Source: Rhododendron vialii (taxonomy: Eukaryota; Streptophyta; Magnoliopsida; Ericales; Ericaceae). From it: DNA of 64,000 nucleotides. The stretch is from contig NC_080560.1 of assembly GCF_030253575.1 (NCBI RefSeq), positions 43,167,001-43,231,000 on the forward strand, given 5' to 3'. A program made the position numbers and the translations under genes. Shown here one piece after another: positions 1,943-30,457 of this stretch. Numbering within the stretch: the stretch's first letter is position 1; each line of letters opens with the position of its first letter. The notes under the pieces are model-generated. The model was not told the DNA's origin. It searched no databases and saw nothing but the letters and a program-made list of their open reading frames with translations.

Positions 1943-2079
1943 TATGCGTCGTATTCTACTTGCGATCGACCCTTTCCCTCCTCTGTTGAAGTCACCCGAC
2001 GTGCTTCCTTCATGAAATTTGGTTTGGGTTCTCTATATCCTAAACAACCGGACCTTTTCCCTGAAAGTACTAGTACTAA

Positions 2080-2840
2080 GGCTCCGTTCCGGAAATCTTC
2101 TTAAAAAATAAGTACTTATTTTGTTACTTTTGATTCAAAAATAAGAAGGGTCATTCCACAAAATTCAAATAAAAAGTTTCTTTCACATTTTCAAACTCAA
2201 AAATAATGCAAATGAAAAAAAAAAGTTCAATTTTTTTTGCACCGTATTAAAGATCTCAATGAGATTTATCAAACAAGATCCATAGTGATAGGAAAATTAT
2301 TTGCATAAACACATAATTTTTGAGTTTGAAGTTGCCTTATACAAAAAATAAGACTGTTGCTATGATAATGGGCGCCGGCGGAGAGAAATCGTACCGGCAG
2401 CCATGCCGGGCCGTATCCGGCCACCGGACGGCCGATCCGAGCCGTCCAAAAATTCTAAAAAAAAAAATGAAGGGGCCTTCAGGAGAATCAACGGCATCCG
2501 AGGTGTGTAGAGTGCTTGATCAGAGCACTCCTTTTCCGTGTAGGGTGCTTGATCATATATACGCGGAAAAGGGGTGCTCAGATCAAGCACCCTACACACC
2601 TCGGATGCCGTTGATTCCATCGCGAGCCCCCTCATTTTTTTTTTTAGAATTTTTGGACGGCTCGGATCGGCCGTCCGGTGGCCGGAGACGGCCGAGCGCG
2701 GCTGCCGGTATGATTTCCCTCCCCGGCTGGTCGGTACCTATATAAATTCTTTTAAAATAAGTAGCAGCCTTCTTATTTTCAGGAACAAACCTTCTTATTA
2801 CACAAAAAATAAGTTTTTATTTCGTTTCTGGAACGGGCTC
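2080..2840. mobile_element. Tourist-like (PIF/Harbinger) element, interrupted
   Basis: The left end ggctccgttccggaa pairs with the right end ttctggaacgggctc, and TAA flanks both sides (2077-2079, 2841-2843), the duplication expected for PIF/Harbinger. Subterminal 'aaaataag'-type motifs recur inside both ends. Its middle is occupied by a second element (2353-2753), so the original host copy was about 360 bp. Related ends occur near 8250-8297 and at 14133-14388. Noncoding. Confidence 0.65.
2353..2753. mobile_element. Palindromic GC-rich MITE, copy 1 (nested)
   Basis: An inverted repeat of about 180 bp per arm carries 'ggccaccggacggccgatcc' in one arm and its complement in the other, around a short loop near 2545-2560. 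It is the most diverged of three copies; the others are at 30052-30457 and 54487-54899. The 8-bp direct repeat aaaataag flanks it (2345-2352, 2754-2761). It lies inside the Tourist-like element 2080-2840, so it inserted later. Open frames on both strands here are by-products of the palindrome. Confidence 0.75.
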
Positions 2841-2884
2841 TAATTTACTCTTTCATTAACGCATTATCCAAGCAACTTGTATTA

Positions 2885-3119
2885 CTCCCTCCGTTCCAAA
2901 ATGAGTGGTTTTTTTTGAGATTCCGTGTCATTTTAAAATACTTATATCTTTCAATTTATGAAGTTTTATGTGATTTTAAAAATTTTGTTTAATAGAACTA
3001 ATTAAAATCTATTAAACAAGATTCATATTGCATATTTTTTAATACTCATATTGAAATATATAAGCAATTGAAAATGACACGTTTTTCCAAAAAGGTCACT
3101 CATTTTGAAACGGAGTGAG
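2885..3119. mobile_element. Stowaway-type MITE
   Basis: The left end ctccctccgttccaaaatga and the right end tcattttgaaacggagtgag are inverted repeats, flanked by TA at 2883-2884 and 3120-3121. This is the textbook Tc1/Mariner-derived Stowaway signature. The interior is AT-rich and noncoding. Confidence 0.85.
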
Positions 3120-3226
3120 TATTAGTTATTGCCAAACTCGATCAAGCTGGATTAATTCTTAACGACTTTTGATATTAGTTATTGCCCAAACTCGATCAAA
3201 TTCTTAACGACCCTTGATATTTGAGA
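3120..3226. repeat. Two-copy tandem duplication
   Basis: The phrase 'attagttattgccaaactc' followed by 'cgatcaa...ttcttaacgac..ttgatatt' occurs twice head to tail with a period of about 55 bp. It sits between the Stowaway MITE and the peroxidase promoter. Confidence 0.6.
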
Positions 3227-3442
3227 CCATCACGTAAAATTTTTGGCTCCGGCCCCTTTTGTACTGCTTTAGCGTTTCGTTCTCGTTTTCATATATTGTG
3301 CAAGCATATTACGAGTACTTCTTTTGTGGTGAGAAGCTTCGGTGTCTTCACATTCTTTCAAACATCACATTTAAGTGGACCAAACAGGCCCCTTGACTAC
3401 GCAAAGGTGTTTCAACCGTACAACAGTGATACTTCTGATCTG

Positions 3443-3453
3443 CATTTAAATAG
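3443..3453 (+). promoter_or_regulatory. Possible TATA element of the peroxidase gene
   Basis: The string catttaaatag lies about 55-65 bp upstream of the peroxidase start codon. It is the only TATA-like string in the expected interval. The assignment rests on position alone. Confidence 0.35.
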
Positions 3454-3506
3454 GTATCAGAAGTCAAGGAGCTTACTCACACACAGGTTTCAGGGGAAGA
3501 AAAGTA

Positions 3507-3731
3507 ATGGGTTTTTCCAGAACCATGTTTGGAGTGATCTTTGTGTTTGCATTGTGGTTTGAGGTACTTGAAGGAGGAGGAGGAGGAGGGGGTCTGTCTT
3601 ATGATTTCTATGAGGGAACATGTCCACAAGTTGAGGACATTGTTAGAGCTGGACTTAAATCTGTCTCTCTCACTGATCCCACCACCCCTTCAGCAATGTT
3701 GAGGCTCATGTTCCATGATTGCCAAGTTCAG

Positions 3732-3778
<47 letters not shown>

Positions 3779-6466
3779 ACTTCTGTGGCTGAGCTCATGG
3801 CTCTTGACTTGCATTAGCTTCAAAAGCTTCAAACCAAGCATAGGGTTTGTGTTTGATTTGAGAGAAAACAGAAAGGAAAATAATAAAACGAAGAATTAAG
3901 CGCAGTGAATTTTCCTCCACCCTCTCCTCAAAATTTATTTTCCTTTATTTTTCTCAAGTTTCAGACGGGCTTTTAGTTTCTGCTTATGATTAATGAAAGT
4001 GAAAATCAGTGCCATTTGTGTTACTGATGGCTATTTCAAAAGTGATTTTAGATCAATTTTCCCCACTTCAATTAAAGTAAAGTAAAAGCAGCTCAAATTA
4101 AAGCCGAAATGCGATATGTCCAAAAGATGCCTAAGAATACAATATGAAGAACTAGATTTATTTTGTGCATGGCCTAGTGAAATTTCCACCATATGGTTCA
4201 TGTCTTTTCGAACTCTTTAGGTGTTCTCATTTAAGAAAAGTGCTTTTCACCCTCGCAATTTTTTGAAAAGAGCAAGGAGAATTCCTATTTCTCTGTTCTT
4301 CAGTTTACTAATTTGCCCTGTCACTTGTTGAGAAGGATATTTGACAATAAGGATTGTCCTGTAATTTAGCTCAACAAACATTAGATCAAAGTGTGTTTGG
4401 TGACCAAAAAAAAATAAAAAATGGGAAGTTATTTATTGAGATGTCATATTTACAAATCATTGGAATCACTCAAAAATTGCATGAACAAATCAAACCAAAA
4501 TTTATTTTCCAACCAACTCCACTAAAATCACCACAAGTCCACAAGTCACGCCTAAACGAGAACCAAACTGATGAACTAAAACTGCGCATTTTGGACTGGA
4601 CTTACTATGGACGATTTTTTACTTCATCCACTCCTTTCGGCTAGTGTGTTTATTCCGGTCTAGTTATTGAGACAATTAATGGGTTTTTTTTTCCCATTCT
4701 GGTGACTTTATTTCTTTCTATAAAATCACAGGGCTGTGATGCTTCAATCCTGATCGATACCGTAACAATGCCATCAGAAATGGACTCAACAAAAAACTTT
4801 GGGATCAGGAAGAGAGAAACAATCACCCTGCTGAAATCAATGGTGGAAGTAGTCTGTCCACATCGAGTTTCTTGTGCTGACATTCTCATCCTGGCCGCCC
4901 GCGATGCAGTGGCAATGTCAGGCGGCCCATGGATACAAGTGCCCTTGGGAAGAAGGGACTCCATTTCCTTTCCTAGCTATAGCCTGGCTGATTCTCTGCT
5001 TCCTGCAGCAGGTTTAGGAGTTGATGGTATGCTGAGGATTTTTGGCAGCAAAGGGATGAGCATTGAAGAATCTGTTGCCATTATGGGTATGGAACTGAAC
5101 TTGGAACCCTCTTACACATGTTTATTTTACATGGAACTCACAGAGTCCGGTTTCCGGCCAACTTGAGTAATTCTTGGGAGACCAATTCGACCATCTACTA
5201 GCAAGGGACTGAGTGCACCGACATGGATACTGATTACCCATATGCATCAACACATGCAACAATGAAATGTACAGAATATATGTACCTAAATAACCCAATC
5301 TGCGAAGAATTAACCGTAGAGAATTATGTGGCCTTTATGATCCTATATATGATTTCAAATCGAAACACTCACCCTTGTGGGGTAATGATTTGAAAGGGCC
5401 ACGGCTTCTCTGCAATCGGAAATTCAAGTGAACTAGACGGTACGGTTTTTGATTACAGGCCCACCAAGAAATTTCAATTAGACGAATCAAAGCATTCAAA
5501 TTGAAAAGAGAACCAAAAAAAAAATTGCCGTTACAAATCTCCAATCAATTTTCATTTTAGAGGATGATCTTCTTGGGAGGTCTTCAAATTAAAGAGCTCA
5601 GATTCATCGACAAGTCAATAGCCATAAGTGGTGGGGCCCAATGAACGGCTCAGATTTATCGACAAGCTGCATAAGTACTGGTGGGCCCAAATAGTACATT
5701 TCGCAGAGAAAACTCATCACAAATGATATGCCAATATTGAGGATTTGGAACGGGCGTGTTAGTGACACATACAAAACGCACGCATACTTGCACACACTCA
5801 AAATGGCCGGGTCCACCCACTACACAGTGTGGACAAACCGCAGTGTGCATTGGGCCCTTGGCCATTGTATCACACGGTGTATTGTACTGTGTCACCATTG
5901 TCCATGTATGCAAAAGAGAAGTGTCTCCGGTTCTTCCCACCCATACTCTTATCGATTGAGAATTACATAGGTACTATCATTGTTGTTATTGCGCGTCCCC
6001 CATATGCATAGCATATCATGTATGGTTTTTGACAAAGTTGTGCCCTTTGCACACCCTTTTTGCAGGATCCCACACTCTAGGAGTCTCGCATTGCTTCAAC
6101 ATCTTCACTCGTCTACAAGCCCCACAACAAGGCAAGGCTGAATACATAGAACCAGGGCTCGAAACGCTTCTGAAATTAAGCTGTCCATTAGGCTCATTGA
6201 CCCCAAACAGTAGCTTTGTTGTGAATGACCCTACCTCATTAACCTTTGACAACCAATACTACCTCAACGCAATGAGAGGCCGCGGGATCCTGAGAGTCGA
6301 TGCAGAGTTGCCTTCGGACCTGAGGACAGGTCCTTTTGTTCGGAACTTTGGGGAAAATCAAGAGGATTTCTTCCGGGCTTTTTCTTCCGGTTTTGTGAAA
6401 TTGGCCTCTTCGGGTGTTCTGACTGGTGACCAAGGTGTTATTAGAGGGATTTGTAGTGTTATTTGA
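3507..6466 (+). CDS. Class III peroxidase, peroxidase 29-like
   Basis: Secreted haem peroxidase that oxidises phenolic substrates with H2O2 in wall, apoplast or vacuole. Exons are 3507-3731, 4732-5086 and 6066-6466, joined by GT-AG introns into 326 residues, the usual length. After a signal peptide and an unusual run of seven glycines the mature part begins LSYDFYEGTCP. The distal site is LRLMFHDCQVQGCDAS, with catalytic Arg and His. VSCADILILAARDAV and GSHTLGVSHC (proximal His) follow, and the conserved cysteines are present, ending at GICSVI. The Gln after FHDC, where most family members have Phe, is also found in Arabidopsis PER29, as I recall it. NFGIRKR and KGMSIEESVAIMG also match that clade. 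Many plant peroxidases have three introns; here the middle one is absent. Intron 1 carries a long CT microsatellite and intron 2 small tandem repeats. No lesion is seen. Confidence 0.93.
3733..3776 (+). repeat. (CT)n microsatellite at the start of peroxidase intron 1
   Basis: About 20 CT units begin directly after the 5' splice site, within the first few intron bases. The pyrimidine tract is at the donor end rather than near the acceptor. Confidence 0.9.
5590..5700 (+). repeat. Tandem duplication in peroxidase intron 2
   Basis: Two diverged units share 'gctcagatt.atcgacaag' and 'ggtgggg.ccca', with a period of about 58 bp. It is noncoding and inside the second intron. Confidence 0.5.
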
Positions 6467-27471: not shown

Positions 27472-27708
27472 TTACTCACATAACTCTTTGCCTCCTTGCC
27501 TTTGTGCTTGATCACATAACTCTACCAATAGCTTCAAACATGTTGGCACATAACTGACACTATGAATCATCATGGCCAAACCCTTGAAATCATCAATATC
27601 TTTCTTCAAGCCTATTTCAAATGCAATTGTAGCCTTTGGGTTGAAGTTGAGAAGGGTGAACACTTGTCCACCAGAAACCTCTATGTTAGCCCTTGTAGAG
27701 TTCACCAT
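27472..27708 (-). other. Unidentified open frame, possibly an exon relic
   Basis: This is a 78-codon frame with balanced composition (FNPKATIAFEIGLKKDIDDF, then LVELCDQAQRQGGKEL). It lies in an otherwise repeat-filled stretch. It looks more protein-like than its neighbours but I recognise no family and see no reliable splice partners. Confidence 0.25.
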
Positions 27709-28194
27709 GGTACACTTTGTTTTGCATTTTTTCTATCAACTGGAGACCAACTTGTCCAAACATGGACCAAACAATGGGTGCAACTCCGAATACATGTTTC
27801 CCAAGGGGATCCCATTCAAGTCTGTTGGACCGTTTTTTCATCATCTCTCCTAAAATTAATTGGCTCTCTTAAAACTAATTGGTGGTATGAATGGGTTCAA
27901 TTAAGTCTTTTATGGCAATCGATATCGCACCCGCATGGTCTGTGTTTAGAGCGGTCGCAGGGAGTGGCATTGTGTAACCAAATCCATGGGGGCACTACGG
28001 GCCCAACAATCCCTCCCTCATGATGACGCTCCCGCGACTCGAACCCATGACTTCTTGGCACTGATACCACTTGTCGGACTTCTTTTCCACCATCTCTCCT
28101 AAAACCAATTGGTGGTAGGAAGGGTTTCAATTAAGTCTTTTATGAGATTCGACATCGCACCCGCATGGTCTATTTTTAAAGCGGTCGCAGGGGG

Positions 28195-29614
28195 TAGGGC
28201 TGCAAACGAGCCGAGTCGAGCCGAGCCTCAGCATGTTCAAGCTCGGCCCGATCAATTATAGGGAGGCTCGAGCTCGGCTTGAGCTTGAATCGAGCTGGAA
28301 AATATGGGCTCGAGCTCGGCTCGTCTAAACTCGGTAGTATATGAACGAGTCAGCTCGGCTCGAGCTCGAGCTCGTTAAAAGGTTCCACATTCATTTTTCA
28401 AAATCCAACTTTCACATTCGATTAAAACCACCACCTAATTCCATCAGTCCATCATTTTTAAGAACCAAAGTAAGAACATACATGAAGCACCATTCACAAA
28501 AACAATGGTGCAAGCCTGGAACAAATAAGATCCCCTAATATATCAAAGTTCACCAAAATATGGGATCTTACAAAAAAAAAACCAGTCAGTCAGCCACCAA
28601 ATGTCTTTGCTTCCAATCTCTAAACATATAACTACATATCAGTATTCAATAGCATCACAAAATAGAACAATCCTTCAAAAAACCCCAATGCCAAAATGTC
28701 TTGAGTCAATAGTTAGAGAGGTTAAGGCAGAGAAAGAGGTAACAACTAGAAATTGACTCTCACATGCTCACAGCATGTTTGTGCAGAGAAAGACGTTGAG
28801 AGTTCGATCTTGCAGAGAAAGAGAGAGAGAGAGAGATCACCCATGCAGAGAAGGAGGAGGTCCAGGAAGATCGGCGATCGGTGGTGGAAGATCGGAGACG
28901 GGTTCATTGATTTGGGTGGTGCGATCGTCGACCTTGGGGCGGGGTTGTAATGTTTTCCGTCGCATCCTTGTTTACTGCAGAGTGGAAACAGAAAACTCTA
29001 AGCATATGAAATAAACCTAAACTTTATATATACCCCCAGATAAAATATATATACAGTCAGGTTCCGGTGAGGGATCCCGTATTTTATTAAAATGCGGGAC
29101 TCTCCTTCCCGATTGAATTTTGATGATCCGAGCCGCTCAAAGTGATCAGAACGTGATTTTAAGGGTCTTCGCGAGAAATCAGCAAAAAAAAATGACCGGG
29201 AAGGGCTTCATCCCAGCAGTTTTCATTGTACAGTTCAAAAAAAACTGTTCGGATGAAGCCCTTCCCAGTAATTTTTTTTTGCTGATTTCTCGCTGGGACC
29301 CCTAAAATCACGTTATGCACACATTGAACGGTTCGGATTTTCAAAATTTGATCGGGAAATAAGAGTCCCGCATTTTAACAAAGTGAGGGATCCCTCACTT
29401 GATCCGTGGGTGAATACATATATATCTAAATATATATATATATATACTCGACTCGCGAGCCGACTCGAGCCGAGCTCATCGCAACTCGAGCTCGGCTCGT
29501 TTATGAAACGAGCTTATAAAACCGGTTCGAGCTCGTTCGTTTATCTTCCGAGCCGAGCTTGAACGAGCCAATAACGAGCCGAACTGCGAGCGACTCGGTT
29601 TGTTTGCAGCCCTA
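28195..29614. mobile_element. hAT-like non-autonomous element inside the TRIM LTR
   Basis: The ends are tagggctgcaaacgagccga and tcggtttgtttgcagcccta, imperfect inverted repeats. The 8-bp direct repeats gcaggggg (28187-28194) and gcagggag (29615-29622) differ at one base. The sister LTR at about 27957-27964 still shows the unoccupied site with a single gcagggag, which fixes the insertion point. Subterminal zones are rich in gagctcg and cgagccg motifs. It is 1420 bp with no transposase; the interior holds an AG tract and a fold-back MITE. Confidence 0.9.
29060..29405. mobile_element. Fold-back MITE nested in the hAT-like element
   Basis: The left 'tgagggatcccg' and 'ttaaaatgcgggactc' are mirrored on the right by 'gagtcccgcattttaa' and 'agtgagggatccctca'. 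The inner arms 'agaaatcagcaaaaaaaaa' and 'gggaagggcttcatcc' are mirrored too. It is about 346 bp with arms over 150 bp. No clear target duplication was found. Confidence 0.7.
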
Positions 29615-29671
29615 GCAGGGAGTGGTATTGTGTAACCAAATCCATAGAGGCACTCCGGGCCCAACAAAGTC

Positions 29672-30051
29672 TTTTATTTAAGATAAAAGAGTGGGGAGAG
29701 AGATTTGTGGAGAGAGAAAGAGTTTTTACTACAACTTGAATTGCAAAGTTTATACATGGTTCGGGCAAATGAGACATCACCTATTTATACACTAAGGAAG
29801 AAGTCTAGAACATTCACTAAATGCTTCCAAACTATTTCAATCTAAAATTCTCTGAGAATATTTATACAAGTCTAGGATTATGTACAATAATCTAGATTAT
29901 TCTAGGAGATAGTTCTAGAAAGTTTCTAGAATTCTCCAGGCTTTCACACTGCTCTAGAGACTGGTAAATTTAGCTTTTTAAAAAAAAAAATCAAATTGAC
30001 CAATTTAGTTTGTTTTTAAAAAAACATATTTTAATGGTGATTTTTAATATA
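29672..30051. other. Intergenic, no gene recognised
   Basis: AT-rich, with several 'tctagaa' or 'ctagattattctagg' phrases around 29870-29945. No coding signal. Confidence 0.4.
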
Positions 30052-30457
30052 GAGTGTTGCTATATGTACCGACCACGGGGAGGGAAAACGTACCGACGGC
30101 CGCCGGCGGGCCGTCTCCGGCCACCGGACGGCCGATCCGAGCCGTTCAAAAATTCTAAAAAATAAAACCGAGGGGGTCAACGCGGGAATCAAGGGCATCC
30201 GAGGTGTTTAGGGTGCTTGATCAAAGCACCCTTTTTTCGTGTATATATGTACACACACATATATACACGAAAAAAGGGTGCTTTGATCAAGCACCCTAAA
30301 CACCTCGGATGCCCTTGATTCCCGCGTTGACCCCCTCGGTTTTATTTTTTAGAATTTTTGAACGGCTCGGATCGGCCGTCCGGTGGCCGGAGACGGCCCG
30401 CCGGCGGCCGTCGGTACGTTTTCTCTCCCCCAATGGTCGGTACTCATAGATTTTTCG
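30052..30457. mobile_element. Palindromic GC-rich MITE, copy 2
   Basis: Arms of about 175 bp around 'gaggtgtttagggtgcttga' and its complement appear perfectly matched, with a 30-bp AT/GT loop (about 30240-30269). The 10-bp repeat ttttaatata flanks it (30042-30051, 30458-30467). Nearly identical to the copy at 54487-54899. The outermost 25 bp differ between the two ends ('gtgttgctatatgtacc' versus 'gaaaaatctatgagtacc'). The 9-10 bp duplication favours a Mutator-like origin. Reading frames here are palindrome by-products. Confidence 0.85.

Follow-up and report, generated by a model that had tools for sequence, protein, structure and literature searches.

A TRIM retroelement of Rhododendron vialii with a hAT element in one LTR and a fold-back MITE inside the hAT

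Organization of the locus

The window, that is, the whole stretch of 64,000 nucleotides of the Rhododendron vialii genome analysed here (C4:43167001-43231000), almost certainly contains three transposable elements of three different kinds that are nested, with a fold-back MITE located within a hAT element that is itself located within a TRIM retroelement. The outermost of these, a non-coding TRIM on the minus strand (27823-29666), is bounded on both sides by a 5-bp target duplication, with AAGTC found at 27818-27822 and again at 29667-29671. Alignment of the two LTRs delineates an intact 3' LTR (27823-28008), which contains a 19-bp tandem duplication at approximately 27851-27869, and a 5' LTR that is split into a part adjoining the internal domain (28072-28194) and an outer part (29623-29666). 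The internal domain of 63 bp (28009-28071), defined from the sequence and from other copies, includes a polypurine tract that borders the 3' LTR (28009-28019; GAGGGAGGGAT when read on the element strand) and is similar in other copies, and a primer-binding site (28056-28069); all these features are on the minus strand.

The 5' LTR is interrupted by a non-autonomous hAT element of 1420 bp, including the MITE (28195-29614), which is recognizable by its inverted ends (28195-28218 and 29591-29614) and by copies elsewhere. This element is flanked by GCAGGGGG on the left (28187-28194) and by GCAGGGAG on the right (29615-29622), whereas the empty site in the sister LTR contains a single GCAGGGAG (27957-27964), as noticed previously. 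The innermost element, a fold-back MITE of 359 bp (29054-29412) probably belonging to the microsatellite-targeting Mutator-like type, is defined by its fold-back arms and by other copies and lies between AATATATATA, in a TA-rich tract (29044-29053, identified from the sequence and from copies), and AATACATATA (29413-29422). The boundaries given in the preliminary description are correct to the base when checked against the sequence. The duplications of the window itself are short or imperfect, with 5/5 matching bases for the TRIM, 7/8 for the hAT and 9/10 for the MITE, the last of these in TA-rich sequence.

Both flanks were searched against the assembly (13 contigs, 532.6 Mb), which yielded no paralogous version of the whole site in the empty state. 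The left flank matches only itself; in this region, overlapping minus-strand open frames that look gene-like and have no Pfam match are present at 27472-27868. To the right, a dispersed repeat begins at about 29680 (29680-29960); several of its matches elsewhere start at about the same base, end near 29960 and are 71-85% alike. The right TRIM duplication together with the next six bases (29667-29677, AAGTCTTTTAT) forms an 11-base word that is found inside both LTRs as well, these three being its only occurrences on the plus strand of the window. A link between this flank and the LTR word was considered and discarded, given that no such pattern is seen in the five bases directly flanking other TRIM copies, and the coincidence is taken as chance. 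A second fold-back is located beside the TRIM at 30060-30449; its arms (30077-30250 and 30257-30430), which are separated by 6 bases, are 99% complementary, so that this element is probably young.

The TRIM retroelement

The assignment of the outer element to the TRIMs, initially proposed from the 5-bp duplication, the primer-binding site and the purine tract, is supported by the sequence as well as by genome copies. On the element strand, the primer-binding site starts two bases past the LTR and is complementary in 13 of its 14 bases to the 3' end (including CCA) of a tRNA-Met of the same genome, and the internal domain ends in the purine tract. A tRNA-Met that serves as primer in this way is the initiator form. 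The primer-binding site fixes the minus orientation of the element and hence identifies the split LTR as the 5' LTR; the same designation in the preliminary description is right only because of this orientation.

The LTRs of the window copy differ in 22 of the 167 aligned bases (14 transitions and 8 transversions; K2P 0.147), and the single 19-bp gap in their alignment is due to the tandem duplication in the intact LTR. In the genome search, 40 of 474 first-look candidates were scored and 29 copies beyond that of the window were fetched, in 22 of which both LTRs extend to the outer ends. These two-LTR copies are 392-404 bp long and span a range of LTR divergence from K2P 0.031 to 0.212. At the nominal ends, the 5-bp duplication is exact in 11 of the 22 and has at most one mismatch in 17, compared to 0.4% and 2.2%, respectively, of the flank pairs taken from different loci as a chance control; the other 5 copies (more than one mismatch) have no convincing duplication. 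The boundaries of the TRIM are thus confirmed by 17 of 22 copies. The 11 exact duplications represent 10 different words; the one shared word is that of L032 and L033, which also have common flanks and probably reflect a local duplication.

We treated as TRIMs those LTR elements that are shorter than 1500 bp and lack a retrotransposon protein, and the present family falls in this class because its copies are 392-404 bp in size and the 63-bp internal domain is too short for such a protein. The primer-binding site and the polypurine tract expected of TRIMs are both present. One account of TRIMs (PMC4717578) further asks for two or more complete copies whose duplications, of 4-6 bp, are not the same, in agreement with the 10 words among the exact duplications found here.

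The hAT element in the 5' LTR

Copies elsewhere in the genome support the originally described hAT-like element of 1420 bp within the LTR. Its 24-nt inverted ends are 92% complementary. As hAT elements make 8-bp target duplications, such a duplication is expected around the element; the one that had been claimed is indeed present, but it is not a perfect match in the occupied LTR, where the two words agree in 7 of 8 positions. The copies found in the genome search stop at the same end bases. Target duplications matching in 8/8 bases flank the copies L068, L072 and L074, and those of L065 and L067 match in 7/8. Among the remaining copies, the fit is loose in L071, L073 is devoid of the final hAT bases and has no 8-bp duplication, L066, L069 and L070 have one clear hAT end only, and L075 matches weakly and in part. 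The 3' end has many relatives in the genome, with 684 candidates of which 40 were scored; among the 20 that were fetched, 14 finish exactly in TTTGCAGCCCTA and 6 differ by one base, and the next 8 bases are different in all 20 places.

Two of the copies, L065 (4800 bp) and L066, are long relatives that encode transposase domains. The hAT RNase-H domain (PF14372) is above the Pfam cut-off in both (E 1.1e-20 and 8.9e-26, respectively), the hAT dimer domain (PF05699) is above the cut-off in L065 (E 2.4e-24) and below it in L066, and a zf-BED match in L065 is just below the cut-off; the domains fall in separate open frames. In the window element the ends are retained and the middle part of L065 (approximately 2057-5091) is absent. 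Because of these features and the transposase domains of its longer relatives, it is a non-autonomous hAT deletion derivative. In its 5' part, L065 (1432-2200) repeats a 258-bp unit three times in tandem; the window hAT has the matching part of 116 bp once.

The hAT site is uninterrupted in 54 LTR matches from the 29 other TRIM copies. Five TRIM copies have only one such crossing LTR, the other LTR being missing or broken at a different position; the non-crossing LTRs are those of L022, L023, L024, L028 and L036, and pieces are present in L021 and L035. This pattern bears on the possibility that the occupied and empty LTRs were brought together by a rearrangement, for instance conversion or unequal crossing over, involving two TRIM copies and a hAT that was present in one of them beforehand. 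Such events have a counterpart in a maize TRIM, where a tandem arrangement points to unequal crossing over according to the description in PMC4528315. For the present locus, this origin appears highly improbable in view of the identical AAGTC on both sides of the TRIM, the 8-bp duplication (7/8) around the hAT, and the LTRs of the other copies, which either cross the site or are missing or broken at other positions. Insertion of the hAT into a TRIM that was already in place is the reading followed below.

The fold-back MITE

The fold-back arms span 29060-29405, and the ends of the MITE, for which the preliminary description gave no positions, were placed from other copies. As already proposed there, the MITE inside the hAT is a separate element. 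The hAT copies L065, L066 and L068 run through the respective tract without the MITE; L067 lacks it too, which is no test of the site because part of the tract is lost in this copy. It might be surmised that the fold-back is an integral part of the hAT, given that L073 and L074 also contain one inside the hAT ends. This is nearly inconceivable, however, because the same fold-back recurs elsewhere with 93-94% identity at no fewer than 39 places (those scored among 3331 first-look candidates, which makes for a large family), 17 of the 19 aligned MITE copies have no hAT match in the flank (approximately 75-110 bases checked for 16 of these and 1.5 kb for L008), with only L073 and L074 matching, and the MITE is absent from L065, L066, L068 and all 20 sampled hAT 3' ends. 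A mere segment of the hAT is thus ruled out by hAT copies without the fold-back and by fold-backs without hAT sequence in the flanks compared.

In 18 of the 19 aligned copies, the MITE has 356 bp between CAGTC and AATTTGTG (355 in L073), and most copies have (TA)n flanks, which are only partial in L080, L085 and L091. At the extreme ends, CAGTCAGG and AATTTGTG do not form a clear inverted pair. An exact 10-bp duplication is present in 13 of the 19 copies compared to 5.1 expected from cross-locus pairs, an expectation that is high because the flanks are TA-rich. Where the left flank is not pure TA, 5 of 7 copies have an exact 10-bp duplication against none expected from cross-locus pairs, and these 7 copies show no match at any other length from 5 to 12; L092 and L073 show no duplication match at any length from 5 to 12.

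The window MITE departs from the common form at its 3' end. The terminal 17 bases, CACTTGATCCGTGGGTG, have a single exact occurrence in the genome, and the last 26 bases are matched within 3 mismatches at 44 other places. For this second 3'-end type, 14 loci were fetched, of which 7 with a full core were used for identities and 6 for the count of private changes, L105 (81% alike) being left out of the latter. The core of the window MITE is 81-92% identical to these 7 copies and on average 94.4% identical to the common group, within which the copies share 98.3% identity, so that the window MITE is not part of the young burst. The two types also meet at L106 (1-921), where one family MITE of each 3'-end type adjoin each other with the 3' ends facing across TA and TG repeats.

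Order of insertions

The order originally proposed for the three elements was TRIM, then hAT, then MITE. The first half of this order stands: the hAT is present in one LTR and the site is empty in the other, so that the hAT must be later than the TRIM. The divergence of the sequences supports the same order, with 6.6% per lineage for the LTRs (22/334) vs 2.0% private changes in the hAT (18/912), the latter being an upper bound because private changes include the time before the last move (Fisher p 0.00016). The window hAT, L067 and L068 are related in a star-like manner, with pairwise divergence of 3.9-4.0% and, over 912 columns, 18, 17 and 18 private changes, respectively.

In contrast, the second half of the order, hAT before MITE, was based on nesting only. 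As nesting shows entry into the hAT, which moves as a whole, the MITE as a third step is plausible but unproven. The private changes of the MITE (10/342), again an upper bound, do not differ significantly from those of the hAT (18/912; Fisher p 0.29), and a count restricted to differences from both of the MITE groups (14/342) deviates towards an older MITE (p 0.04). The divergence of the MITE does not separate its arrival from that of the hAT. The succession of TRIM and hAT is clear, and for the timing of the MITE at this locus there are two readings.

Under the second of these readings, the hAT already held the MITE before jumping into the TRIM, and the jump of the MITE itself occurred elsewhere and earlier. 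hAT elements are cut-and-paste transposons, and whatever lies inside them travels with them. The private changes of the MITE (by either count) are proportionally no fewer than those of the hAT, and two other hAT-related copies, L073 and L074, contain a MITE of the same family. Nevertheless, we consider this course of events rather unlikely, if by no means negligible. The hAT-MITE junction of the window is found in no other copy among 39 scored of 4648 candidates, and the private changes of the MITE give an upper bound only. Furthermore, L073 and L074 look like separate events: both have the common MITE 3' end, and the MITE lies in another TA tract in L074 and near the same tract with a different left side in L073. 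These two copies are also biased for the presence of the MITE because the search query contained it, whereas among the 20 hAT 3' ends (of 40 scored) that were chosen by the hAT alone, none holds a MITE in the approximately 500 bases upstream, where the TA runs are short (0-10 bases). Enrichment of MITEs in hATs is not claimed, the unbiased sample being also a weak control given these short TA runs; recurrent targeting of hATs by these MITEs, without a demonstrated excess, is possible. That the TA-rich tract near the hAT end serves as a landing pad, with MITEs hitchhiking and the present one entering the TRIM as a passenger, seems unlikely.

Proposed history and implications

The succession of events was almost certainly as follows. 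The TRIM integrated on the minus strand, producing the AAGTC duplication; its priming from tRNA-Met is suggested by the primer-binding site, and its copying presumably depended on the enzymes of another element. Later, the non-autonomous hAT inserted in the 5' LTR with an 8-bp duplication, the empty site being kept in the sister LTR; mobilization by the transposase of longer relatives appears likely, as relatives with transposase domains are present in the genome. The fold-back MITE, of a microsatellite-targeting and probably Mutator-like family, entered the TA-rich tract near the hAT 3' end with a 10-bp duplication (9/10, in low-complexity sequence), either at this locus or in the previous home of the hAT.

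The locus makes a clean worked example, as the empty-site control and a rough internal clock are both provided by the sequence itself. A limit of nesting is illustrated as well, namely that a passenger inside a cut-and-paste element is not datable as a later arrival. Beyond that, the region is routine annotation material for a plant genome.

Comparison with known elements

A layered insertion of this kind is ordinary for a plant genome, and all three elements are of known kinds. The outer element resembles TRIMs in its small size, the two LTRs, the 5-bp duplication, the tRNA-Met primer site, the polypurine tract and the many copies with different duplications; the window copy is peculiar in that one of its LTRs has the 19-bp duplication and the other contains the hAT. 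All the features by which membership in the hAT superfamily was assessed from sequence were found, namely 8-bp duplications, short inverted ends, which here begin with TAGGG, and transposase domains in longer relatives. There is no difference of note from this superfamily; the ends of the window element are continued by imperfect repeats of the GAGCTCGGCTCG type.

The MITE fits, by analogy with published descriptions, the microsatellite-targeting Mutator-like MITEs (SaTar, mMITE). The SaTar families of guayule and rice are described as 380-425 bp long, with long arms, 10-bp duplications and (TA)n targets (PMC5907723). The window family is similar, with a size of approximately 360 bp, long arms, flanks of (TA)n, duplications of 10 bp outside pure TA and, in at least one place (L106), side-by-side neighbours neither of which interrupts the other, as in the SaTar arrays described there; going by that description, it differs in that its outermost bases are poorly inverted. 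The targeting of TA microsatellites is shared with MuTAnT of Medicago (PMC4486113) and with the Ac-mMITEs of pineapple, copies of which outside microsatellites have 9/10-bp duplications (PMC8449440), again going by the descriptions; in the window family, a duplication of this size outside the pure microsatellite is found in 5 of 7 copies.
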